Below, piece by piece: positions 1 through 26,496 of a stretch of DNA of 64,000 nt. The notes under the pieces are model-generated. The model had not been told where the DNA came from. It saw nothing but the letters and a program-made list of their open reading frames with translations, and made no database searches. A program made the position numbers and the translations under genes. Source of the stretch: Candidatus Woesearchaeota archaeon CG10_big_fil_rev_8_21_14_0_10_45_16 (GTDB lineage Archaea; Nanobdellota; Nanobdellia; Woesearchaeales; GW2011-AR9); contig PCXY01000003.1 in the NCBI GenBank assembly GCA_002762785.1, positions 134,463 to 198,462 of the forward strand, given 5' to 3'. Position 1 is the stretch's first letter. Every line of letters starts with the position of its first letter.

Positions 1-45
1 TAGCTGGGAAAATATGGCGGCAAAGAACTGTTGGGTAGACATAAC

Positions 46-615
46 ATGAAAAAGAGAAGCAATCCTTTGTCAAGGAAAATGAGACCAGTGTCTAAAAAAA
101 AAGGACAGTTGTCTAAGATATTTGGACAAAAAATACGTGAGTATTATTATGAACACCCCGCAGATGCTATGACCGTCCGTGCTTTAGCGTTAAAATTGAA
201 ATTAAATAGGTCTACAGTGCAATATCATCTCCAACAATTGAGGAAAGAAGGGTTTATTGACAAAAATAACCTCTGGGTTGATTCCTGGTCAAATAAATTG
301 CAAAAATCACACTATTTTACCCTCAAAATTGCGTCTAGCGGCTTGGTTCAGTATCTAGAATCAGAGCTGGGGGTGAGCGCCATCATTCTTTTCGGCAGTT
401 TCAGTAAGGGAGATTCAGTAAAAGAGAGCGATATTGACTTATTTGTAGAATGTGCCAGACAGAAACAGCTTGAACTCCAGAAGTTTGAGCGACTATTGGG
501 CCATAAGATTGAGTTGTTTACAAAAGCCAGAATTTACCAATTGCCAAAACCATTGCTGAATAATGTTGTTAATGGAATTAAATTGAAGGGGTATTTTACA
601 TTAAACAATGAATGA
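46..615 (+). CDS. HTH-nucleotidyltransferase (MNT) antitoxin-type protein, cassette 1
   Basis: Residues about 25-75 form a winged helix-turn-helix (TVRALALKLKLNRSTVQYHL). This is followed by a minimal nucleotidyltransferase domain with LFGSFSKGDSVKESDID, a complete GS-x10-DxD catalytic motif. MNT proteins of this size usually pair with a HEPN partner and, in MntA/HepT systems, AMPylate the toxin. The next gene overlaps by 8 nt and is HEPN-like. The HTH suggests that the protein also autoregulates (inference). I chose ATG 46 over an in-frame TTG at 31. The 5' leader (GGTAGACATAACATG) resembles the leader of the MNT gene at 1919, so both cassettes may share an upstream junction that lies partly outside the window. 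Confidence 0.8.
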   Translation: MKKRSNPLSRKMRPVSKKKGQLSKIFGQKIREYYYEHPADAMTVRALALKLKLNRSTVQYHLQQLRKEGFIDKNNLWVDSWSNKLQKSHYFTLKIASSGLVQYLESELGVSAIILFGSFSKGDSVKESDIDLFVECARQKQLELQKFERLLGHKIELFTKARIYQLPKPLLNNVVNGIKLKGYFTLNNE

Positions 616-1030
616 TCTAATGCCTTGGAAAGAATGCGAACAGAAATTCATCCGTAAAGTCACTGTAGATTTGGTAAAAGTGAGTTCTATCAAGGAGATG
701 GCTTTTAAACGGTGGGAGTTTATCAAGTCAGTTACGACAACTGAGAAAAATGTAAGTTTCGTTTTTGAGGGCTATTATGAAGTTATTAAAGAGCTCCTGG
801 TTGCGTTGTTGTTACAATCAGGCTTCCGTTCTCAAAACCACCAGTGTCTTATCACGTTTTTGAGTAAAGAACATGGTTATGACGCAGAAGTAAATATTAT
901 AAAGCAGATGAACTTCCTCAGGAATAGGTTAAACTATTATGGTGAAGCTGTGGAATTGGCGTATTTCCAGGAAAACTATAAAAGCTTTGAGAAAATCATT
1001 ACATTGGTGCGCAGTTTGCTGAAAAAATGA
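608..1030 (+). CDS. HEPN-like partner protein, cassette 1
   Basis: All-helical 140-residue protein that overlaps the preceding nucleotidyltransferase gene by 8 nt, the usual MNT-HEPN arrangement. Near residue 107 it carries RNRLNYYG, which lines up with the HEPN RNase motif RX4-6H but has Tyr where the His should be. It is therefore either a different HEPN subfamily or catalytically altered. The central helix (GYYEVIKELLVALLLQSGF) fits the HEPN core. The stop codon overlaps the ATG of the orphan signal-peptide fragment at 1027 as ATGA. HEPN assignment is by motif and context only. Confidence 0.65.
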   Translation: MNDLMPWKECEQKFIRKVTVDLVKVSSIKEMAFKRWEFIKSVTTTEKNVSFVFEGYYEVIKELLVALLLQSGFRSQNHQCLITFLSKEHGYDAEVNIIKQMNFLRNRLNYYGEAVELAYFQENYKSFEKIITLVRSLLKK

Positions 1031-1134
1031 AAAAAGCGGTGATGTTGGCATTGGTGTTTTTGGTGCTTCGCAGTATGCTGGTTGCTGCTCAGGAAGAAGC
1101 TCCTGCTGATTATTGCTGGGGGGAAGTCAGATGA
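1027..1134 (+). pseudogene. Orphan 5' head (signal peptide) of the large secreted protein gene, copy A
   Basis: A 35-codon frame that begins with the same 18 nt as the secreted protein gene at 2801 (encoding MKKAVM). It continues as a signal peptide and then QEEAPADYCWGEV, matching QEEEADPCSGFWGTV of the full gene at lower identity. It stops at TGA 1132-1134, which overlaps the ATG of the next HEPN gene. Both ends are ATGA overlaps, so the fragment sits in an unbroken translational chain. I read it as the remnant of a paralogue whose body was replaced by a HEPN-MNT cassette. A functional leader peptide is possible but less likely. Confidence 0.7.
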
Positions 1135-1502
1135 AAGCAGATGTTGAGGTCTGGCTCAAACAAGCCAATAGGGATTATAAAAGCGCGACGAATAGTCTTA
1201 AATCCAATGATTATTATGTTGCCTGTTTATTATCACAACAGGCAGTAGAGAAAGCGTTAAAATTCTTACATCTTTTAAAAGGAAAAGAGTTATTAAGGAT
1301 TCATGATTTAGTTAAATTAGCAAGGGAAATAAACGCGCCGGATGACCTGATCGAAAAATGCGCAAAAATAAACCCCGTGTATGTAGAGGTCAGATATCCG
1401 GAAGGATCTGAAATGCCGGCAGAGAAAGTGAATAAGAAAGAAGCACAAGAAATATTGGAATTGTCTAGGGAAATTTTAAGATGGGTAAAAAAGCAAATCT
1501 AG
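1131..1502 (+). CDS. HEPN domain protein (PF05168 type), cassette 2
   Basis: A 123-residue protein with the classical HEPN signature LLSQQAVEKALKFLHL at about residues 33-48 and the late VEVRYPEG motif. Members of this HEPN class bind the neighbouring MNT protein and lack the RX4-6H RNase site. Here HEPN precedes MNT, the reverse of cassettes 1 and 3, and overlaps it by 22 nt. ATG 1131 overlaps the stop of the orphan head in front. A longer TTG start at 1113 would run inside that head and is not favoured. Confidence 0.85.
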   Translation: MKADVEVWLKQANRDYKSATNSLKSNDYYVACLLSQQAVEKALKFLHLLKGKELLRIHDLVKLAREINAPDDLIEKCAKINPVYVEVRYPEGSEMPAEKVNKKEAQEILELSREILRWVKKQI

Positions 1503-1795
1503 TCAAGGAACTAAGAAAGTTTATGAAAGAGGTTAACCTATCTGTAGATCAGGTTTATTTGTTTGGCTCCCAAGCTACAGGAAAAGCGGGAAAGGGAAGC
1601 GACGTGGATCTGTTATTAGTCTCGAAAAGTTTTGCTGGAAAAAGAAAGCTGAAACGGGCGCCGCCATTCTACCTGAAATGGAATTTAGATTATCCTGTTG
1701 ATTTTATCTGTCTTACTCCTGAAGAATTCCGTCAAAGGAAGAAAGAAACCGGTGTTGTCCAAGAAGCTGTTAAAAAAGGGATAAAAATTGTCTAA
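1481..1795 (+). CDS. Minimal nucleotidyltransferase (MNT), cassette 2
   Basis: A 104-residue pol-beta-like minimal nucleotidyltransferase with VYLFGSQATGKAGKGSDVD, an intact GS-x10-DxD motif, and a third acidic strand at VDFICL. It has no HTH. It overlaps the HEPN gene upstream and ends one base before the ATG of the next orphan head at 1797. It likely forms a complex with the HEPN protein, and AMP transfer to a partner is the expected chemistry for the family. Confidence 0.85.
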   Translation: MGKKANLVKELRKFMKEVNLSVDQVYLFGSQATGKAGKGSDVDLLLVSKSFAGKRKLKRAPPFYLKWNLDYPVDFICLTPEEFRQRKKETGVVQEAVKKGIKIV

Positions 1796-1796
1796 A

Positions 1797-1922
1797 ATGA
1801 AAAAAGCGGTGATGATGGCATTGGTGTTTTTAGTAGTTCTATCTATGCCTGTTACGGCTCAGTTAGGTCAGACTCAAATCAAAAGAATTAAAAATAACAA
1901 TTGTTTGGTAGATATACTATGA
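1797..1922 (+). pseudogene. Orphan 5' head of the secreted protein gene, copy B
   Basis: A 41-codon frame starting with the same 18 nt as copy A and the full gene (MKKAVM). It encodes a signal peptide ending VTAQ, followed by an unrelated 20-residue tail. The stop TGA at 1920-1922 overlaps the ATG of the following nucleotidyltransferase gene. Homology to the complete gene ends soon after the predicted signal-peptidase site, earlier than in copy A, so the breakpoints differ between copies. It is probably a decayed gene start left by cassette insertion. Confidence 0.68.
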
Positions 1923-2326
1923 AAAACCATCTGTTACAATTTATAGATCTATGTAAGAAAGAATTTGGCCGGAAATTAATTTCTGTGATCCTCTTTGGAA
2001 GCCGTGCAAAAGGCCAGTATCATGATCTGAGCGATTTTGATTTTTATATTGTTGTCAAAGAGGAAAATGAACAAAAAAAGTGGAATCTTCTAAAACAATT
2101 TCCATTTAGTTGCGATATCATCATGAGGAAAGAGGAAAATATTGGATACTATCTCAAAAACCTTAGCGCCATCGATCTAGAAGTAATTAATACGGGCAGA
2201 TCCATATATGGAAAAGATATTATCGCTAAATACAAGCCCCTCTTGAGAGATATAACTAAAGAGCATCATCTGGTGAATCGGGAGCATTTAGGAAAGGGGG
2301 TATGGGAAATTGGATTTGCAGGCTAA
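1919..2326 (+). CDS. Minimal nucleotidyltransferase (MNT), cassette 3
   Basis: A 135-residue nucleotidyltransferase with ILFGSRAKGQYHDLSDFD, a full GS-x10-DxD motif, and a third acidic position in SCDIIM. No HTH is seen. ATG 1919 was chosen because it forms an ATGA overlap with the preceding fragment; an in-frame TTG at 1901 lies inside the fragment. The gene overlaps the following HEPN gene by 17 nt. Family, order and spacing match an MNT-HEPN toxin-antitoxin pair. Confidence 0.83.
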   Translation: MKNHLLQFIDLCKKEFGRKLISVILFGSRAKGQYHDLSDFDFYIVVKEENEQKKWNLLKQFPFSCDIIMRKEENIGYYLKNLSAIDLEVINTGRSIYGKDIIAKYKPLLRDITKEHHLVNREHLGKGVWEIGFAG

Positions 2327-2804
2327 GAGAGCCTTAGCCCGGCTTATCGAGGCAGCTGAGGATTTAAAAACAGCAAAGCTATTGTCAGGCAAGCTTCAAA
2401 GTAGGTCCCTGTTTCATTCCCAGCAGTGTGTAGAGAAAGCTTTTAAAGCGGTCTTGAGTAAGGTGATTATCGGTGAAATTAAGTCACATACCGTTATTAA
2501 ATTGATTGAGTTGAAATCACTTCCGGTACTTTCAAAAGAGTTGCAAAAAGAGTTTGTGGCATTGAAAGAAGATGCTTTTTGGGCGGAGCGACGCTGGATT
2601 GATACTCGCTATGAAGAATTGAAACCCGGAGAGAAGATTGAGGTCCCCACATATAAGTTTACAGCAACCGATGCCAAAAGGGGCATAAAAGCGGCGGAGA
2701 AGACGTTATCTTGGTCGATTAGATGCGTTCATGCTCTGTTTGGTGTGGATGTGCCTGAGGATTATAAAATCTTAAAAAATTTTGCCAAAAAATATTTACA
2801 ATGA
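2310..2804 (+). CDS. HEPN domain protein, cassette 3
   Basis: A 164-residue HEPN protein with SLFHSQQCVEKAFKAVL at about residues 33-49 and RWIDTRYEELKPGE in the third-helix region, typical of the PF05168 class without an RX4-6H RNase site. It probably starts at TTG 2310, preceded by a purine-rich GGAAAGGGGG site about 9 nt away; no in-frame ATG exists near it. Its last codon overlaps the ATG of the large secreted protein (ATGA), so the toxin-antitoxin pair and the secreted protein are likely co-translated. Confidence 0.82.
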   Translation: MDLQAKRALARLIEAAEDLKTAKLLSGKLQSRSLFHSQQCVEKAFKAVLSKVIIGEIKSHTVIKLIELKSLPVLSKELQKEFVALKEDAFWAERRWIDTRYEELKPGEKIEVPTYKFTATDAKRGIKAAEKTLSWSIRCVHALFGVDVPEDYKILKNFAKKYLQ

Positions 2805-5497
2805 AAAAAGCGGTGATGTTGGTGTTGGTGTTTTTCGTACTTTTTAGTTCAGTCCTTGCTCAGGAAGAGGAAGCTGATCCTTGTTCTGGCTTCTGGGGAA
2901 CGGTGAAGTGTGTATTGTTCGGCGATCCTAACCGGCAGGCTTTAGTTGGTGAAGCTGCAGCGGTTTCGCAAGAGACTGATGCAAATGGTTATACTTATTT
3001 TGAATACGATGATCCTAATGATGGTCAAAGATCAGAGACAGTTAGGAGAAAAGGTAATGAGGTTCAAGTTTTAACAGCAGGAGAATGGAAGCTAGCTGAT
3101 GAGGCTGTTAGTAGGATAATCACTACTCCAGCGATGTATGCTGCTGCGCTTAAAGAGAATTATCTCGTTCTTCAAACTATAGCTCAAGTGGAAACTTCTT
3201 CTGGTTTGACAATACCTAAAGCAGGTAGTACAGTAACTCCAGAACCTGCGACTGCACCAGCGGCAGCACCGGCTCAAGCAGAAGCTAAACAGTTGTCAGA
3301 GAAACAGAAAGAAAGACTTCCTGCTGAATTAAAAAATAATCCTGATCTTTTAAATCATAAACAAGTTTCTTATTTGGATGGTTTTATTCAACTAGATTCA
3401 AATGGTAAACTTGTGGTTACTGATAGTCTTGGGAATGTAGTGGGAGTTATAAATACTGACGGTACTGATCTCGCCGTAAGTGATTATACGCCTCCAGCAG
3501 AAGGAACAACTCTTCCACCAGCAGCTGCACCCACACCTGTTCCTCCGCCACCTGCTTCACAACCTCTTCTTGATCAGAATAAAGAAGAGGATGTCAAAAA
3601 ATTTCAAGAAGTTTGGATTAGAGTACACTGTCCTGAGAGAAGATGTCCTGCAGGTACTGAATGTATTGGTACATTAGCTAAAAGTATCTGTTCAGCAGAT
3701 GGAGCATTTGGTACTAAGACAAAAGCCGCTTGGGATGATTATTATCTGAATCTTCCTGCTACTCAATCTGCAGCTGATGATGTTGCAGCAGCGCAAAAGC
3801 AAGTTGATGATTCAAGAATGTTCACTTCTTTTGATTCCAAAACAAACAGTGATAAGGCATTTGAGTTAGACGCTGGGGGAAATGGTGCTGTTATTAGATC
3901 TAATTCGGGGGCTATTGTTAGAACTTTTACTCGTGATACTGATACTGGAAAATGGTTTGAAACTACTAATGGGGAAAGGAATGAAGTAATTGGTGACCTA
4001 AAAGATATATTCGATGCTCAATCTAAAAAAGTAAAAGAAGCGCAAAAAAACCTCGAGTTGGTTCGAAGAATAAATAATCTTCAATCTGCTTCTTCTCCTA
4101 ATTTACAAAGTTACAAAACTCCCGCCAACGAGCGTTACACTAGCTCAATTAATGATTTTTTCTCTGACAAAACAGATTTGAATGCCGTCACAGATGAACA
4201 GATCCAGCAATATGTTGACATTCAAGGGTTATCAAAAGATGAGTCAGCTCAACTTAAGAGCGATCTTCAAGACCAATTAGGATTAAGGAGGAAGGGGGTA
4301 CTTCAGGAAGATATCGACACAAGACTTGAATACTATCAGGCGCGAAGAACCAGGGATGATCTTAAACAACAACAACAAGAGAAAGTTAAAGCAGCTCGTG
4401 CATTAAATCAACTTGCTAATCAGAACTTAGAAACGGCTGATAAGTTCCTTGATGATTTTCAGAAGTCTCATCTTAATCTTGATGTAAGAGGTCTCAAATC
4501 TGCTCAGGTAGAGAAATTGCAAGAGCTTAATAATGATGAAAAAGCGGCTCTCAAACAAAATCTTGAACTAAGAGAATCTGCTTTAGCGCAAAGAGCATCA
4601 GCGCAAGAATCACTTAACGCTATTAACAAAGAGTTAGATGCTGCAGAAAAAAAAGCAGAAGAATTACGACGTGAAAGCGTGGAAAGGACGCCATTGACTA
4701 CAACTCAACGCATATCCAACTTCTTAGGTGCATTCGGTCAGTTTGGAGCATTGAGCAATGCTCTTCACATAAGTGATAATAAAGATGCTGATGCGGTCGA
4801 CAAGTGGTTTGCAGGAACAGTATTATCTACTGGATATTGGGAATCGGCTGTTTGTAATGCTGATCCACAAGATTTAGCAGATTCCGGTGCTGCTTTTATC
4901 GTAACACCTTCGGGAACAGAACAGCCTGTGGCTAGCGCCAATGGCGAACGCATCGGCGGCAGAGTGCCTTTGTTATGCACACTCTTAGAGGATCCAGCTG
5001 CTGAAGAGGAACCAGAACCTGCTTGTCCTGGTGAACTGGAATGCCGTGACGACGGTTTCTGCTATGAAGAAGGGAAAGATGTTCCTGCAGAAGGGTTCCT
5101 CTATAGGTTTAGTTGGGGAGTTACTGCTCCAGCAGATGAGCAGATCACTCCTTATCTAGATGAAGATGGCTATGCTATTGAGTTTAATATTGAAGTAGAT
5201 GGTTTCCAGCTTTACGATTTGAATGTAGAACTAAAGAACGGTCAATCTGATAAAGACCTTTGGGCAGAATATGTCTTTGGGGATGATTTAGCTAACAGAG
5301 AAATCTGTATCGTCTGGGAACGAGCGCCTCAAACTTATGGTGAATTGTTTACTGGTCAAACTGATTTACCTGACGTCTGCAACACCATCGTCATCTCGGA
5401 AGAAGGTACTCCAGAGAAGCCAAAACGGCAGAGAAGAGACTTCCGATCTACAGTATCCAGCGGCGAGGTTACCAGAAGAAGCCTGTCATCAAGGTAG
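2801..5497 (+). CDS. Large secreted coiled-coil protein with peptidoglycan-binding-like segment
   Basis: An 898-residue exported protein. The signal peptide (residues 1-20) ends SSVLA-Q. An Ala/Pro-rich linker follows at about 145-165 and again at 230-255. At about 265-315 a segment ending DGAFGTKTKAAWDDYY resembles the end of the PG_binding_1 fold (DGxFGxxTxxA). Residues about 400-630 are charged, Gln/Lys-rich and probably coiled coil. A Cys-rich patch PACPGELECRDDGFCYEEG lies near residue 740, and the protein ends in a basic tail, TRRSLSSR. The 5' end exists as two orphan copies upstream and the 3' end as one copy at 6707. Function is unknown; a cell-surface or adhesion role is inference. 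Confidence 0.8.
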   Translation: MKKAVMLVLVFFVLFSSVLAQEEEADPCSGFWGTVKCVLFGDPNRQALVGEAAAVSQETDANGYTYFEYDDPNDGQRSETVRRKGNEVQVLTAGEWKLADEAVSRIITTPAMYAAALKENYLVLQTIAQVETSSGLTIPKAGSTVTPEPATAPAAAPAQAEAKQLSEKQKERLPAELKNNPDLLNHKQVSYLDGFIQLDSNGKLVVTDSLGNVVGVINTDGTDLAVSDYTPPAEGTTLPPAAAPTPVPPPPASQPLLDQNKEEDVKKFQEVWIRVHCPERRCPAGTECIGTLAKSICSADGAFGTKTKAAWDDYYLNLPATQSAADDVAAAQKQVDDSRMFTSFDSKTNSDKAFELDAGGNGAVIRSNSGAIVRTFTRDTDTGKWFETTNGERNEVIGDLKDIFDAQSKKVKEAQKNLELVRRINNLQSASSPNLQSYKTPANERYTSSINDFFSDKTDLNAVTDEQIQQYVDIQGLSKDESAQLKSDLQDQLGLRRKGVLQEDIDTRLEYYQARRTRDDLKQQQQEKVKAARALNQLANQNLETADKFLDDFQKSHLNLDVRGLKSAQVEKLQELNNDEKAALKQNLELRESALAQRASAQESLNAINKELDAAEKKAEELRRESVERTPLTTTQRISNFLGAFGQFGALSNALHISDNKDADAVDKWFAGTVLSTGYWESAVCNADPQDLADSGAAFIVTPSGTEQPVASANGERIGGRVPLLCTLLEDPAAEEEPEPACPGELECRDDGFCYEEGKDVPAEGFLYRFSWGVTAPADEQITPYLDEDGYAIEFNIEVDGFQLYDLNVELKNGQSDKDLWAEYVFGDDLANREICIVWERAPQTYGELFTGQTDLPDVCNTIVISEEGTPEKPKRQRRDFRSTVSSGEVTRRSLSSR
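5438..5497 (+). repeat. 3'-end module of the secreted gene, intact copy
   Basis: The last 19 codons plus stop (DFRSTVSSGEVTRRSLSSR) recur at 6707-6766 with 49 of 60 nt identical by hand alignment. Most differences are at third codon positions, so the peptide was under selection in both copies before one was orphaned. Confidence 0.8.
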
Positions 5498-5546
5498 GTT
5501 CATTAATCGTAAGATTTATATACCTGTGTATGTTTTAAAAATACAC

Positions 5547-6149
5547 ATGGCTGTTAAAAGAATACAATTCACCAAAATTGAACTTCAGATAGTTACATAC
5601 CTGTTTAAGCATTATAAAGACAAATATAACGCTCGGCAATTAGCTAAATTCTTAAAGATAAACCATGCCCATGCTAATAAATTATGTCATCTTTTGGTAG
5701 ACAAACATCTATTAACTCAACAAGAGCTTGGCAATTCTATCTTTTTCTCTTATAATTATGAATACCCCTTGGCGATTAAATTTATGGAATATACATTGAG
5801 TTTGGAAGACTTTCCTTCATGGTTAAAAATTGTATCTTATAACCTCAATAAATTTAAAGACTGCATTGGTCTTGGTTTGATTTTTGGCTCGTCCATAAAA
5901 TCTAGAGATTTTAATGATATAGATATTTTACTTATGTATGATCCGGAAAAATCAAAAGAAATTAAAAAAATAAAAGATGAAATAAGAAAATCTGAATTAG
6001 TTGAAAAACCGATTAGATATGTAGACATAACCGAAGCGGATATTTTGTTAAATAAAAAAGACAAAATATTTTATAATATATTCTCTGAAAATCTGGTCTT
6101 CCATAATCCTGAAAAATATGTGGAGGTTATCCAAAAATCCCGTACCTAA
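5547..6149 (+). CDS. HTH-nucleotidyltransferase (MNT), cassette 4
   Basis: A 200-residue protein. Residues about 5-70 form a winged HTH (YNARQLAKFLKINHAHANKLC). The nucleotidyltransferase domain contains LIFGSSIKSRDFNDID, a shortened GS-x8-DxD motif, plus an acidic third strand (RYVDITE). The start at ATG 5547 is supported by a TATA-like ATTTATATA at about 5514-5522, roughly 30 nt upstream; longer readings run back into the secreted protein gene in another frame. It is followed directly by a HEPN-like frame. The shortened active-site loop may alter activity. Confidence 0.8.
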   Translation: MAVKRIQFTKIELQIVTYLFKHYKDKYNARQLAKFLKINHAHANKLCHLLVDKHLLTQQELGNSIFFSYNYEYPLAIKFMEYTLSLEDFPSWLKIVSYNLNKFKDCIGLGLIFGSSIKSRDFNDIDILLMYDPEKSKEIKKIKDEIRKSELVEKPIRYVDITEADILLNKKDKIFYNIFSENLVFHNPEKYVEVIQKSRT

Positions 6150-6214
6150 ATAATCATCTGAAATGGTGTCTGAAAGACTCCCAAAGGCTGGTAAAAACAA
6201 AGCCAGACCTGGAT

Positions 6215-6616
6215 TTGGCTCAAAAGCACATCCAGAAATCAGAGTACAATTACGATGTACTGCAAAATCTTGAAAAACTAAAAATATATGATTGGGCATT
6301 CAACGTAGGTTTTTATGCGATTTATCATTGCTTTTTAGCAATCCTTGCCAAAAGCGGTTATGGATCACGAAATCAAGCTTGTATTATAACTGTTCTTCTC
6401 ACGTTGATAGATGAAAAGAAACTTGACTTTGATAAAGACTTGGTCGCTCAATTTGATACTCTTGATGCTGAAAAGAGTATTGCTAGTTCAACAGTAAGAA
6501 AAAACAGAGAAATTTCCACCTATGGCGTTGAAACAAGCATTGATCTGCAACATATTCAGAGAATCAAAGAATTGGTATTAAAAGTGCAAAGAGAAACAAT
6601 AAAAATACTGCAATAA
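6215..6616 (+). CDS. HEPN-like protein, cassette 4 (start codon missing or non-canonical)
   Basis: An all-helical protein with RKNREISTYG near its end, similar to the degenerate HEPN motif of cassette 1 (R...YG without His). The reading frame stays open and looks coding upstream of the TTG at 6215 (YLNNHLKWCLKDSQRL, from about 6143), back to a stop at 6110-6112. No ATG, GTG or TTG lies between that stop and 6215. The true start is therefore a rare codon (ATA, ATC or CTG), a loss of start by mutation, or the internal TTG. Pairing with the MNT gene just upstream supports the family. Confidence 0.6.
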   Translation: MAQKHIQKSEYNYDVLQNLEKLKIYDWAFNVGFYAIYHCFLAILAKSGYGSRNQACIITVLLTLIDEKKLDFDKDLVAQFDTLDAEKSIASSTVRKNREISTYGVETSIDLQHIQRIKELVLKVQRETIKILQ

Positions 6617-6706
6617 TCTAAACATGATATTTAGAGGCGGCAAAGAGTGGATTAAACATGGAAAAATCAAAGAGTTCAAAAGATTTGAAGGATAACAAAA
6701 ATAAAA

Positions 6707-6766
6707 GATTTTAGGGCCACCGTAGCCAGCGGTGAGGGTACCAGAAGAAGCCTGTCGTCAAGGTAG
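6707..6766 (+). pseudogene. Orphan 3' tail of the secreted protein gene
   Basis: Encodes DFRATVASGEGTRRSLSSR followed by TAG, matching the last 19 codons and stop of the 898-residue protein gene. No body of that gene precedes it; upstream is HEPN cassette 4. Together with the intact tail at 5438 it brackets MNT-HEPN cassette 4 as a direct repeat about 1.27 kb apart. At 49/60 nt identity it is an old or paralogous copy, not a recent duplication. Confidence 0.75.
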
Positions 6767-6867
6767 ATGATAAGTATTCGATTTACTTGCTTCATTGAGG
6801 ATCAAAATAAAGTAAATGTTTCTTTAGCAAAAACTACTCAACTGGCAGTGATTAAATAGTTCGCATC

Positions 6868-6985
6868 GTTATTGAGCAAAATAACGATTTTTGCTCATTG
6901 TGATTGAGAATATACGCTGGAAAATTAGATTGTATACCGAAAGACATCAATAATCAAACTTATCTGTTATGCCCAGTATGTATTA
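6868..6985 (+). repeat. 118-nt structured direct repeat, copy 1
   Basis: Starts with an imperfect hairpin (TGAGCAAAAT-AACG-ATTTTTGCTCA) and continues through GTGATTGAGAA, CGCTGGAAAATTAGATT and GAAAGACATCAATAATC, all repeated at 8165-8283. Estimated identity is about 80-85 percent with one single-base indel. The two copies lie in the same orientation on either side of the HepT/MntA cassette at 7067-7866. Confidence 0.7.
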
Positions 6986-7066
6986 AGCTAAGCGCGTGGG
7001 CGCCGCCAATTTTCTCCAAAGCCGCTGAAAAAGAAAGAACCCATATATAGAAGATCAGAGTCTGGT

Positions 7067-7498
7067 CTATAGTTGCTGCGAAGCGAGGCAGGCTTTTATC
7101 TCTTTTTCAAACTGAGAAAAATCATCTATCTCTTCGGTGAGAAATTGATAAGATAGCGCATCATCAATTTCACCATACTTATGAACAAGGATGTTGCGGA
7201 AGCCTTTCATCTGGCGGATCTTCTCTGCAGTTTCCTGGCTTAGGATCTTCTTTTTCTCTATCGTATCAATAAGATCATCTTCACTCTGGGGCAAACCTAA
7301 TTTGTTCGAAGAAACAACTATGGAGATTATAGAGATTACCGCTTCGATAGCAGATTCTACTGTTTTCTCACAGGCTCTTCTGATAGTAAGGTCGCGCAAG
7401 TATTCCCGTTCCTTTTCCGGAAGAATATCTTCTAGTTCCCCTAAATACCTATTCATCTCTTCCAATTTACTGAGGATTTTCTTCTTGGCGTCCATCAT
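7067..7498 (-). CDS. hepT: HepT-type HEPN ribonuclease toxin, cassette 5
   Basis: A 143-residue DUF86/HepT protein. FRNILVHKYG near residue 103 matches the catalytic RX4HXY motif (R-NILV-H-K-Y) of HEPN RNases, and the Tyr is the residue AMPylated by MntA in characterised type VII systems. It overlaps the mntA stop by 4 nt and is transcribed after it. The pair is opposite in orientation to the other cassettes. Expected role: RNase toxin neutralised by MntA. Confidence 0.88.
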   Translation of the reverse strand: MMDAKKKILSKLEEMNRYLGELEDILPEKEREYLRDLTIRRACEKTVESAIEAVISIISIVVSSNKLGLPQSEDDLIDTIEKKKILSQETAEKIRQMKGFRNILVHKYGEIDDALSYQFLTEEIDDFSQFEKEIKACLASQQL

Positions 7499-7866
7499 GC
7501 CTCCATGGCAGCAAAATATTCATTATAATATTTTTCAAAACTGCTAAAGCTCTTAATAACCTTCATGAATTCATCAAAGACAAACTGATAATTATCATAA
7601 TAAAGTACTTTTCCTTTTATCACTTCATTCTGAACCGCCAATGGGAGATCCTGGAAGATATGGAGATCAACCTTATCGGGAAGATGCCCCAGAACTTTAA
7701 TTCTAAACGTAAATCTTTCTTTTGGATTTCCTTCATAGTAGACTGCTATATCAGTATCAGAAAGCGGACCATCTGTCCCTTTCGCAGCACTGCCAAAAAG
7801 GATCACAAAACGGATTTTCGACCTGTCTAAAGAAAGAATCTTAGCTTTTATCTTATCGTTATCCAT
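7495..7866 (-). CDS. mntA: MntA-type nucleotidyltransferase antitoxin, cassette 5
   Basis: A 123-residue MNT protein with VILFGSAAKGTDGPLSDTD (GS-x10-DxD) and KVDLHIFQDLP, the typical third-acid and LP motif of MntA antitoxins. ATG at 7866 was chosen over ATG 7875 because a TATA box (TTTATATA on the minus strand, near 7889-7896) lies 28 nt upstream, giving the leaderless spacing seen across this window. It forms a type VII toxin-antitoxin operon with hepT. Confidence 0.87.
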   Translation of the reverse strand: MDNDKIKAKILSLDRSKIRFVILFGSAAKGTDGPLSDTDIAVYYEGNPKERFTFRIKVLGHLPDKVDLHIFQDLPLAVQNEVIKGKVLYYDNYQFVFDEFMKVIKSFSSFEKYYNEYFAAMEA

Positions 7867-7875
7867 GTGACGCAT

Positions 7876-8495
7876 AAAGAATGGAGATATATAAAGCTTT
7901 ATGTACTTATTTTACGAAATATGTTAGGGAAATATCCAGATTACTAATCAGCAGTTTTAGGTAGGATTAACACATCCAGAAAGCCTGTCAGCTCCGATAA
8001 TTATAAACACTGTAATCTGTCCTCTTTTTGGGTATATGGCAGTTGTTGCAGGAGGTTAGATGTTACTGCAAGCCAAATTTCTTCAAAAGCTCGGCATGCA
8101 ATTCAGCGTGTCTATTAACCCAATTATCCTAGGACCACAAGTATTCACTCCAATCATCCTCATTGCCATTAAGCAAAATCTCCATTATTGCTCATTGTGA
8201 TTGAGAACATCGCTGGAAAATTAGATTATATACTGAAAGACATCAATAATCGAACTTATAAGTCATGCATCTTTATGTATAGTTAAAGCAATCGATGTAC
8301 GAAAATTTAATGCTACCCTATTTCATCTAGAACTTAAAACGTAAGTAATAGGTTAGCTTTGCGAATGATTATAGAATTCAGCCATTTGCTTATAATCTTT
8401 TATCATGATAAACACCTTGCTAGCAATTTATGACCTGGCATATTACGTACACTAAAACAAAATATTAATAAACACTCTTTCTTTCCTTACACCTG
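7876..8495. other. 620-bp region without a confident gene
   Basis: Contains the minus-strand mntA promoter, a 46-codon frame at 8060-8200 preceded by GGAGG (MLLQAKFLQKLGMQFSV...), the second structured repeat at 8165-8283, and the promoter of the membrane protein gene at 8496. The 46-codon frame runs into the repeat and stops there; it could be the decayed start of a gene. I see no homologue for it. Confidence 0.5.
8165..8283 (+). repeat. 118-nt structured direct repeat, copy 2
   Basis: Second copy of the element at 6868. The hairpin arm pair is kept in altered form (AGCAAAAT-CTCC-ATTATTGCT). The block TTGCTCATTGTGATTGAGAA is identical in both copies. One frame of this copy reads IENIAGKLDYILKDINN, so a decayed coding origin is possible; the indel in copy 1 breaks that frame. 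Confidence 0.68.
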
Positions 8496-9290
8496 ATGAA
8501 ATTTCTGGACTCATTCAAGCTGAAGACACCTTTTTTTATCTCGTTAGCCGTTGATGCGGTCAGTTTCAGCCTTCTGGCGTTAGTGTTCTACCTTTTCGCT
8601 CAATACATGCAGACCAAAGCTATCCTCCTCTCAGGAGGACGGACAGCTGAACAGATTCAACAGATGCTGCTTACCGCACCCACGGAGGTTGTGCAATCCT
8701 TTTCAAACGACTTAAAATCATTATTTTACATCATGGTAGTCGGTGGTCTGCTGCTTATCATCGCTTCATTATTTCTCTATACCTTCTCACGAGCATATCT
8801 CTGGAACACTCTGCTTAAGAAAAAATTCAGCAAAAAGAACTACTGGCGCTGGAATGGTCTGTATCTATTGATAATGTTGATCTCTGTGCTTTACGCCGGC
8901 CTTGTTTTTATCGTCTCATTCCTGCTAAGCTCTTTAATAGCCTTGATACCAGAACCGAATACGGTCGCATTATTGACCAAGACTCTCAATTCAGGCTTTT
9001 GGATGCTGTTCCTGATCTTTATCTTCATCACCTCTTATTATTTTGCTAAAAACTACAAAGTCTTCCGCTCTCTGGGAGAAGCTTTCCAATCTTTTAACAA
9101 AAGATGGCCGTCTTTATGGCGGTTGTTTCTGTGGTCGCTTCTGATTCTAGTTGCGTTAGGATTTGTCAATTTTGGTGTTACCAGATATTTGATTTTCCGC
9201 CAGACACCTTTGTTTGTCTATAACTTTATCATAACCATCCTTTACCTCAGCTGGTTAAGACTTTATGTCTTCAAGTCTCTTTCTCAATAA
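8496..9290 (+). CDS. Integral membrane protein of unknown function
   Basis: A 264-residue protein with about five to six hydrophobic segments (near residues 15-38, 70-95, 120-150, 165-185, 205-225 and 235-258). The N-terminus MKFLDSFKLKTPFFISLAVD resembles small polytopic proteins common in DPANN genomes. No catalytic motif is seen. It is monocistronic with an AT-rich promoter (AATATTAATAAACA near 8460). Its stop codon lies inside the 22-nt repeat that is duplicated at 10179. I cannot assign a function. Confidence 0.75.
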   Translation: MKFLDSFKLKTPFFISLAVDAVSFSLLALVFYLFAQYMQTKAILLSGGRTAEQIQQMLLTAPTEVVQSFSNDLKSLFYIMVVGGLLLIIASLFLYTFSRAYLWNTLLKKKFSKKNYWRWNGLYLLIMLISVLYAGLVFIVSFLLSSLIALIPEPNTVALLTKTLNSGFWMLFLIFIFITSYYFAKNYKVFRSLGEAFQSFNKRWPSLWRLFLWSLLILVALGFVNFGVTRYLIFRQTPLFVYNFIITILYLSWLRLYVFKSLSQ

Positions 9291-9300
9291 GCTTTATAAA
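9279..9300 (+). repeat. 22-nt direct repeat with TATA box, copy 1
   Basis: Contains CTCAATAAGCTTTATAAA: the last codons and stop of the membrane protein gene followed by the TATA box of mntA (cassette 6). It matches 10179-10200 at 21 of 22 positions. Confidence 0.85.
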
Positions 9301-9322
9301 GATGGAAGCTTCTCTGGATTAC

Positions 9323-9685
9323 ATGAAAGATTCACTGAAAAGCCTGCTCGGCAAGCTCCAGAAAGAGAATACAGTTTTGGCAGTCTATCTCTTCGGTTCG
9401 CATGGTACAGAGAAGGAAACTCCTCTCTCAGACATAGACCTCTGCCTCTTTACTGCTCCATTATCAAACAAAGAATATCTTAACCTTATGTCTTATGGTA
9501 CGGACAAGATAGATATCAGTATTTTCGATAAGCTGCCTTATAATATCAAAGTAGAAGTTTTTAAAGGAAAACCTTTGTATGTTAAAGATAAAGATTTTGT
9601 CATTCGTCAATACGCTATCTCTCTTCGTCAGTATTACGATTCTCACAAATATTATACCAAATATTTTGAGGCGGTTTCGGCATGA
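9323..9685 (+). CDS. mntA: MntA-type nucleotidyltransferase antitoxin, cassette 6
   Basis: A 120-residue MNT protein with VYLFGSHGTEKETPLSDID (GS-x10-DxD) and KIDISIFDKLPYNIK, the MntA third-acid/LP motif. ATG 9323 was chosen because the TATA box TTTATAAA at 9293-9300 lies exactly 30 nt upstream; the in-frame ATG at 9302 would sit directly on the TATA box. It overlaps hepT by 4 nt. Its expected role is AMPylation and neutralisation of HepT. Confidence 0.87.
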   Translation: MKDSLKSLLGKLQKENTVLAVYLFGSHGTEKETPLSDIDLCLFTAPLSNKEYLNLMSYGTDKIDISIFDKLPYNIKVEVFKGKPLYVKDKDFVIRQYAISLRQYYDSHKYYTKYFEAVSA

Positions 9686-10223: not shown

Positions 10224-11003
10224 ATGCAAAAAAGAGGACAGGTGACGGTTTTTGTAATTGTTGCGCTATTGGTATTAGGGCTTAGTGCGCTTATCTTTGT
10301 CTTAAATGAGAGGATCACACCAGAGATAAAGCCTGTTGATACAGCTCCAGTTCAGCAGTTTGTTGAAAGTTGTCTTCAAAAAACTCTTAGCGAAGGGATT
10401 TCATTCATCGCTGAAAATGGAGGATATAACCATCTTCCTGAACTGTCTTCGAGCGATGCTTTTCATAATGCTCCTTATTATGTCTATCTTGGAGAAGATA
10501 CTTCACCCACCCTGCAGAGTATCCAGCGGCAGCTAGCGGATTATATCACCAGTCAATTACCGTTCTGCATTCAACAATTTAAAGCTTTTCCCTATACAAT
10601 CAGTTTTTCTGAGATCAGCACCCGTGTTTCAATACTTCTGGGAATGGTTGATGCGGATATCTCTTTTCCAATAACAATTGAGCAAGGAGAACAGCAGGCG
10701 ACTCTCGATACTTTTAGGGTATCCCAGCCATCTTCTCTTTTTGAAATGTACAGTGCCAGCCAGGAAATTGTGGACTATACTCTTCTCTTTGACAATGCCA
10801 TCTGCTTCGACTGCATAGATGATACGGCCCAGAAGAACAATCTTCAGATAAGTGTTTTAGAGTTTAAACTTGATGAACTATTTTATATTATCGAGGACCT
10901 TGACAAAGAGCTGGTGTATCGATTTGCCAGTAAGCATCAAGATCTGCCGGAGAGCGATATTGTCAACTATAATTTTATACCTGGAGAGATACCATGGGAA
11001 TAA
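10224..11003 (+). CDS. Membrane-anchored extracellular protein with class III-like leader
   Basis: A 259-residue protein beginning MQKRGQVTVFVIVALLVLG, the N-terminus typical of a widespread DPANN family: a basic KRGQ followed by a hydrophobic helix, resembling a type IV pilin leader. The rest is soluble and presumably outside the cell, with two Cys pairs (SCLQK; CFDCID). It is the first gene of a three-gene operon with 10-nt and 7-nt overlaps. The leaderless start is fixed by the TATA box at 10193. Function unknown. Confidence 0.75.
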   Translation: MQKRGQVTVFVIVALLVLGLSALIFVLNERITPEIKPVDTAPVQQFVESCLQKTLSEGISFIAENGGYNHLPELSSSDAFHNAPYYVYLGEDTSPTLQSIQRQLADYITSQLPFCIQQFKAFPYTISFSEISTRVSILLGMVDADISFPITIEQGEQQATLDTFRVSQPSSLFEMYSASQEIVDYTLLFDNAICFDCIDDTAQKNNLQISVLEFKLDELFYIIEDLDKELVYRFASKHQDLPESDIVNYNFIPGEIPWE

Positions 11004-23472: not shown

Positions 23473-23607
23473 TCACTTGTAAGTGGTCAAACCTTTGGTG
23501 TTGATTTTTTGTAATTCAGCCTTAAGAAGGTTGCAGAAAGTATGGGTCTTGCCTTTCAGCTTGAACACCAGCTTGGTCTTGCTTTCTTCGAGAATGTTGA
23601 GTTCCAT
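23473..23607 (-). pseudogene. rpo11: Truncated copy of rpo11 (rpoL)
   Basis: The first 35 codons (MELNILEESKTKLVFKLKG...) are almost identical to intact rpo11 at 26187-26456, then the frame ends after nine unrelated codons (NTKGLTTYK). The duplicated block is 23511-23647 against 26360-26496: 137 nt with 7 mismatches by hand count. The TATA box of the intact copy (TTTATAAA) is TCCATAAA here, so the promoter has decayed. The missing part includes the dimerisation helix needed to pair with Rpo3. Not functional. Confidence 0.88.
23474..23485. promoter_or_regulatory. Palindrome CACTTGTAAGTG
   Basis: 12-bp inverted repeat (CACTT-GT-AAGTG) upstream of the TATA box of the 23428 gene and across the end of the rpo11 fragment. 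Same class as 16033. Confidence 0.35.
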
Positions 23608-23647
23608 GCAACTCCGTTTAGGGAGTTTATTTATGGATGTGTCTCTG
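23511..23647 (-). repeat. 137-nt direct repeat from the rpo11 5' end, copy 1
   Basis: About 95 percent identical to 26360-26496, same orientation. It covers the promoter and first 35 codons of rpo11. The two copies bracket the histidine kinase, receiver and folK genes. Confidence 0.9.
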
Positions 23648-26190: not shown

Positions 26191-26456
26191 AATGCCTTAG
26201 CTTCTTTCTGGAACTCTTCTGCTTTCTTCTTGATAGATTTCAGAGCATCTTTCAGCGCTTTTCTTGGCTCAAGACCTTTAGTCTCCAGGAGGAACTGCGG
26301 TACACCGACTAAAGGGTGATCGACCCTGTAAGTGGCGATGACGATGCCGTCTATCTTCTGTAATTCAGTCTTAAGAAGGTTGCAGAAAGTATGGGTCTCG
26401 CCTTTCAGCTTGAACACCAGCTTGGTCTTGCTTTCTTCGAGAATGTTGAGTTCCAT
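26187..26456 (-). CDS. rpo11: DNA-directed RNA polymerase subunit Rpo11 (RpoL)
   Basis: An 89-residue full-length Rpo11 with MELNILEESKTKLVFKLKG, HTFCNLLKTELQ, ATYRVDHPLVGVPQFLLET and a C-terminal amphipathic helix that packs on Rpo3. TATA box TTTATAAA 30 nt before ATG 26456. The 5' end and promoter are duplicated as a decayed copy at 23511. Confidence 0.95.
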   Translation of the reverse strand: MELNILEESKTKLVFKLKGETHTFCNLLKTELQKIDGIVIATYRVDHPLVGVPQFLLETKGLEPRKALKDALKSIKKKAEEFQKEAKAL

Positions 26457-26496
26457 GCAACTCTATTTAGGGAGTTTATTTATAAATGTTTCTCTG
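26360..26496 (-). repeat. 137-nt direct repeat from the rpo11 5' end, copy 2 (intact)
   Basis: Parent or functional copy of the repeat at 23511-23647; it keeps the consensus TATA box. Confidence 0.9.

Follow-up and report, generated by a model that had tools for sequence, protein, structure and literature searches.

The 64,000-nucleotide (nt) stretch analysed here (hereafter the window) covers positions 134,463 to 198,462 of contig PCXY01000003.1 of the Candidatus Woesearchaeota archaeon CG10_big_fil_rev_8_21_14_0_10_45_16 (GenBank assembly GCA_002762785.1). Its left part belongs to a conserved operon of metG, a pilin-like gene 1, gene 2, gene 3 and a membrane protein gene, which hosts cassettes of MNT nucleotidyltransferase and HEPN genes. 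The 5' end of gene 3, here called the head, recurs upstream of the gene as short open reading frames (ORFs) that lack the gene body (orphan heads). On balance we consider it probable that these heads are duplicated gene 3 5' ends marking the entry sites of mobile, defence-type cassettes, and that they persist as leader ORFs. In order, the locus comprises gene 1 (771 amino acids, aa, with a pilin-like N-terminus), gene 2 (1068 aa), MNT0, head 0, MNT1-HEPN1, head A, HEPN2-MNT2, head B, MNT3-HEPN3, head C with the body and tail of gene 3, MNT4-HEPN4, a second copy of the tail, a direct repeat, a minus-strand HEPN/MNT pair, the repeat again, and the membrane protein gene (Table 1).

The first 18 nt of the head (ATGAAAAAAGCGGTGATG) are exactly identical at 1027, 1797 and 2801, where 0.13 matches with up to three mismatches would be expected by chance. 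The likeness of the window heads spans about 92 nt at 66–72% identity and declines from 16–18 of 18 positions in the first block. Only the copy at 2801, head C, which shares an ATGA overlap with the stop of the upstream HEPN gene, runs on into a long protein of 898 aa. The initial annotation of the window had described the identical start, the diverged but similar signal-peptide stretch behind it, the single continuation into a protein and the ATGA coupling on both sides of head A and on the 3' side of head B, and all of these observations hold. Its count of three heads is right for the window and incomplete for the locus: a search of the genome (1.18 Mb, six contigs) revealed head 0 just upstream as a fourth copy, which begins with MNKAVTMFVLFMLLGSMIVAAQEE, overlaps the stop of MNT0 with its start and forms an ATGA with the start of MNT1, and the tail of gene 3 is duplicated as well.

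Such head arrays are a family-wide pattern at one locus and no local oddity. Of 96 related genomes searched at the protein level, 43 have gene 3 homologues, many of them with additional short head ORFs. Matches of a head profile (E < 1e-6) in 49 genomes of one Woesearchaeota family lay nearly all at the same conserved operon, at which 40 loci were read; outside the family, a single match at 1e-6 was obtained among 288 genomes of the order (G267). The same arrangement logic is found at this locus in about 15 genomes, with about 35 orphan heads set between cassettes that include several kinds of MNT/HEPN pair, MNT/HepT, DUF1016-YhcG, SLFN_AlbA_2-HATPase and PIN-like genes (the labels PIN and HepT denote sequence resemblance alone, without a Pfam match). 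PADLOC lists several of the cassette genes as candidate phage defence components (PDC-M05, PDC-S09, PDC-S02), and the HEPN/nucleotidyltransferase pair figures as the archaeal-enriched candidate defence system PDC-M05 in a 2026 survey (PMC12988326). Empty sites, at which gene 2 directly abuts gene 3 without a cassette, are present in G009, G015, G023 and G037. Where there is a single cassette, it mostly lies between gene 2 and gene 3 and has no orphan head. In multi-cassette genomes heads separate nearly all cassettes, as in G008 and G020 (five cassettes and five orphan heads each) and in G036 (several cassettes, four full heads and a 22-aa remnant), and orphan heads are often one fewer than cassettes, the first cassette being without a head (G000, G010, G012, G038). 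Gene 3 of G020 (L044, 13654–17755) is broken into several frames from the head onward, which reflects either a pseudogene or an assembly error.

We infer that units consisting of a cassette and an adjoining gene 3 end enter the locus by homologous recombination in the manner of Campbell, so that the flanking gene end becomes directly duplicated; for this part of the explanation there is direct support from several independent lines of sequence data. Such a unit would recombine with the corresponding end of the gene 3 already in place, and a single crossover with a putative circle would yield either head-cassette-head-body or body-tail-cassette-tail, so that gene 3 would stay whole and an orphan end would remain. 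The first cassette after gene 2 would often lack a head because a cassette was already present at the locus when the new unit arrived. Consistent with the movement of ready-made units, HEPN genes of type 7 have the same ATGA junction to the following head in G000, G036, G008 and G044 at differing array positions, and the DUF1016-head junctions of G008, G036 and G020 contain a 28-nt spacer in four of five cases and one of 27 nt in the fifth. Cassettes are 60–85% identical between genera (DUF1016 85% between G020 and G008); gene 2 of the relatives is 32–36% identical to that of the window, and the median for MetG is 56%. The head at 6426 of G008 is a mosaic, whose 5' part, together with the end of the upstream DUF1016 gene, is 80–90% like G020, whereas its middle is 97% like G008 gene 3 and its 3' part 80% like the G008 orphan at 8755.

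Duplication is not confined to heads. Gene 3 tails are duplicated in G000 (48 nt at 90%), G012 (65 nt at 74%) and G010 (179 nt at 93%), where the two copies (L050, 10559–10737 and 12154–12332) enclose a minus-strand 429-aa ORF that looks like an ATPase; this is the freshest-looking insertion that we found. Two further inserts in the window are likewise bounded by direct repeats. One is the minus-strand HEPN/MNT pair, surrounded by an intergenic repeat of about 118 nt that carries a hairpin-like GAGCAAAA..TTTTGCTC. The other comprises a histidine kinase and a response regulator (a two-component pair) with a folK-like gene, and is enclosed by a 144-nt repeat of 94% identity (23504–23647 and 26353–26496), which represents the 5' end of an rpoL-like gene (similar to RNA polymerase subunit L) on the minus strand. 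This repeat parallels the heads, except that a housekeeping gene takes the place of gene 3. In G016 (L051), a 162-nt direct repeat of 83% (9424–9582 and 10253–10412) flanks an AbrB-like gene and an adjoining short gene behind gene 3.

The initial annotation had envisaged serial replacement of the secreted gene body by cassettes, that is, a tandem duplication of gene 3, after which cassettes took the place of the bodies in the upstream copies and in a downstream copy of which the tail survived. Its notion of the heads as scars of cassette acquisition stands; body replacement in tandem paralogues, however, is the weaker reading compared with the insertion of units, and we regard it as unlikely. 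It does account for orphan heads upstream and orphan tails downstream alike, and sequential displacement with leftover orphan partners is documented in modules of the Vibrio type VI secretion system (T6SS; PMC5361080). Full tandem copies of gene 3 also exist, in G033 (1055 aa and 813 aa, separated by an MNT/HEPN pair) and on a partial contig of G035, and replacement retains some standing because of the full tandem copies in G033. Insertion of a cassette with a gene end nevertheless fits better, because full tandem copies were seen in these two genomes only and fragments elsewhere, because empty sites hold one gene 3 right after gene 2, because the first cassette of several genomes has no preceding head, and because other inserts are flanked in the same way by duplicated tails, by the intergenic repeat or by the rpoL-like 5' end, the latter two, both in the window, being no copies of gene 3. 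Moreover, most orphans terminate shortly past one common short region, and four or five independent replacements with nearly identical endpoints are less likely than the movement of a ready unit.

Once within the operon, orphan heads most likely act as leader ORFs for translational coupling and not as secreted peptides, a reading based on the geometry of their junctions. In 31 of 37 orphans, the distance from the stop codon to the start of the cassette is −8 to +9 nt, compared with 4% for shifted frames, and these 31 junctions fall within the spacing for termination-reinitiation of −8 to +10 nt; all three orphans of the window's genome have a stop-to-start distance of −4. This coupling range applies to Haloferax and E. 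coli, in which a distance of about 20 nt nearly abolishes coupling and the final 15 nt of the preceding gene are enough for it (PMC10666635). Bridging persists in shortened heads from which an intact signal peptide or the central part is missing (G036, 22 aa; G039 and G032, 31 aa each; G007, 12 aa; G017, 10 aa); the G036 mini-head retains the start and the 3' end and forms an ATGA with a PIN gene. Head starts either abut the upstream stop or sit 27–150 nt downstream of it, and a strict TATA-like motif at −40 to −18 precedes 11 of the 31 heads that do not abut a stop (background 3%). A TATA-like box ahead of a start ATG fits the leaderless transcripts of archaea. Identity among array heads peaks in the first 12 nt (0.81), amounts to 0.60–0.65 further in and to 0.46 upstream. 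A ribosome finishing the prior cassette, or starting at an ATG behind a TATA-like box, would accordingly read the head, stop within a few nt of the cassette start and re-initiate there.

That the orphan heads instead encode short secreted peptides acting outside the cell appears highly improbable. Many of them do retain an intact signal peptide and the conserved segment CxGFWGSIxCFLWG, but heads at the same position elsewhere that lack the signal peptide or this Cys/Trp segment still bridge (the 22-, 12- and 10-aa forms), and in the window the full segment is kept by head C alone. Since the frames stay open to the cassette start even where the signal peptide is deleted, a coupling role would apply rather than secretion.

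Codon-level purifying selection was significant in four of the five orphan-orphan pairs tested in relatives. Pairs sharing a derived junction gave ratios of nonsynonymous to synonymous change (pN/pS) of 0.24 (P = 2e-5) in G030 and 0.36 (P = 0.03) in G020, the pairs of G036 concur (0.28 and 0.38), and the pair of G033 is not significant. The second proposal of the initial annotation, selected leader peptides that keep cassette translation coupled, thereby gains support from the relatives, from the junction geometry and from the bridging mini-heads, but not from the window's own orphans, for which constraint is not significant. Free variation of the heads including frameshifts, which the annotation had set against its proposal, was not observed. 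A further explanation would regard the heads as functionless recombination scars, kept by recent insertion and by continued recombination with the intact head of gene 3. The closest relative of a head lies in its own genome in 39 of 48 cases (3.1 expected), which agrees with this explanation, as do the mosaic head of G008 and the lack of significant constraint among the window orphans. Nearly all orphan frames, however, even those with large internal deletions, continue without interruption until at most a few nt from the start of the cassette, and the selection seen in the shared-junction pairs of G030 and G020 is not expected of scars. We therefore doubt the explanation for the family as a whole, while the window's own heads may be pure scars.

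Several points weigh against our preferred explanation of unit insertion with leader ORFs. Codon constraint on the window's heads is significant only for A versus C (P = 0.022), and as its orphans lack significant constraint, at most selection on the frame, and not on the peptide, can be claimed there; the identity of the heads could stem from recent copying instead of selection. Since frames read in a shifted register terminate early, the control based on them is lenient. Broken heads are under-counted because heads were found by an open-frame profile, and a possible remnant of one lies at 360–600 of L047. The data contain no circle, strain pair or insertion in progress. Finally, a Shine-Dalgarno function of the 3' end of the head (ggtgggg beside the stop) is not claimed, as its value of −7.4 is hardly above that of shuffled sequences (−6.6).

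The assignment of the cassette genes in the window follows from profile matches: MNT1 to MNT3 match PF01909/PF18765, and MNT4, under the Pfam cut-off, is recognized by the PADLOC profile; HEPN2 and HEPN3 match PF05168, HEPN1 matches PDC-M05B only, and HEPN4 stays under the cut-off (Table 1). Palindromes near MNT gene starts at L012 13790–13860 and at 90–140 of the window (TTAGACATATGTCTAA; TTGTCTAAGATATTTGGACAA) are candidate operators for MNT proteins with a helix-turn-helix (HTH) domain. Across the family, gene 3 has a variable body and a conserved C-terminal region, and its proteins contain repeated (N/A)LVGEA-like motifs shortly after the signal peptide, where many orphan heads stop. Gene 3 has no Pfam match above the cut-off, neither gene 2 nor gene 3 has one in NCBIfam, and gene 2 has no match among solved structures. 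The C-terminus of gene 3 gave a low-confidence model (mean predicted local distance difference test, pLDDT, 62.6) with no significant fold match. A structured RNA at the locus was rejected, as Rfam gave no match across window positions 1–9500.

Table 1. Features of the gene 3 locus in the window (positions in nt; +, forward strand; −, reverse strand).
Feature	Position	Strand	Remarks
Head 0, 3' end	1–49	+	41-aa ORF starting at contig C2:134386, 77 nt upstream of the window; stop TGA overlaps ATG of cassette 1 MNT at 46
Cassette 1 HTH-MNT nucleotidyltransferase, putative antitoxin	46–615	+	Pfam Polbeta/NTP_transf_2 plus HTH; PADLOC PDC-M05A, PDC-S09
Cassette 1 HEPN-like partner	608–1030	+	PDC-M05B, E = 1e-4; no Pfam HEPN match; −8 overlap with MNT
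Orphan head A	1027–1134	+	35 aa; ATGA overlap at both ends
Cassette 2 HEPN	1131–1502	+	PF05168, E = 1.6e-27
Cassette 2 MNT	1481–1795	+	PF01909, E = 7e-15
Orphan head B	1797–1922	+	41 aa; begins 1 nt past the MNT2 stop; 3' ATGA overlap with downstream MNT
Cassette 3 MNT	1919–2326	+	Polbeta, E = 1e-9
Cassette 3 HEPN	2310–2804	+	PF05168, E = 1.2e-15
Gene 3 (head C and body)	2801–5497	+	898-aa predicted secreted protein; C-terminal region conserved in relatives
Gene 3 tail, duplicated downstream	5434–5497	+	
Cassette 4 HTH-MNT	5547–6149	+	TTTATATA box upstream; matches PDC-M05A
Cassette 4 HEPN	6215–6616	+	Weak PF05168, under cut-off
Orphan tail	6703–6766	+	Repeats the gene 3 3' end (last 20 codons), 81% over 64 nt; behind MNT4/HEPN4
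Direct repeat of ~118 nt, left copy	6855–6972		Flanks the minus-strand HEPN/MNT pair
Cassette 5 HEPN (7067–7498) and MNT (7495–7875)	7067–7875	−	ORFs; clusters 9 and 12 common to relatives
Direct repeat of ~118 nt, right copy	8152–8268		

Tentatively, the locus may represent an integron-like cassette system of Woesearchaeota that operates without a recombinase of its own, in which the translation start region of a host gene serves as homology arm for the exchange of defence cassettes between species and, once duplicated, as the leader ORF that expresses each cassette. If so, acquisition and expression of cassettes would both come from one coding repeat, which seems to be recombination arm and expression adaptor at once in a tight operon without free space for insertion. 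This bears on the question of how defence genes pass between small, genome-reduced archaea when no mobile element is visible. The arrays also provide a searchable signature, as an orphan gene end bridging −8 to +9 nt to a foreign start codon could mark an insertion in other operons.

Integron arrays can occur without a neighbouring integrase. An actual integron was rejected as candidate: a simple pattern search (not a structure model) for attC R''/R' pairs in five arrays gave two against 0.4 expected in G010 and none in the other four, the window's among them, so that pairs did not exceed chance in these four, and no integrase lies beside the array, the three tyrosine recombinases of the genome being located at C5:54 kb, C2:78 kb and C2:171 kb. 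The locus nevertheless shares with integron arrays, including archaeal ones, ordered same-strand cassettes with one repeat each at one fixed locus, repeats that are more alike within than between genomes, and toxin-antitoxin cargo (PMC9668308). It differs from them in that the repeats are coding 5' gene ends instead of folded attC sites, that there is no local integrase, and that other nearby inserts are flanked by different local sequences. In the openly licensed full texts searched, we found no description of arrays of this kind. With orphan-module displacement arrays, such as those of Vibrio T6SS immunity genes (PMC5361080) and Rhs, it has in common the growth by horizontally acquired modules via homology without an integrase, with orphan parts staying behind; here, however, the resident gene is intact, its N-terminal or tail fragments make up the orphans, and the cargo consists of intracellular toxin-antitoxin or defence-type genes unrelated to it. 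The stop-start spacing of −8 to +10 nt, often with −4 overlaps, is that of known termination-reinitiation coupling (PMC6728339, PMC10666635), but the bridges would in this case be duplicated fragments of an unrelated host gene. Lastly, the cassettes resemble HEPN/MNT toxin-antitoxin pairs in the adjacency of an MNT nucleotidyltransferase to a HEPN gene and in their overlapping frames, and they differ from such pairs in that several different ones are assembled in one operon, each bounded by gene 3 heads.

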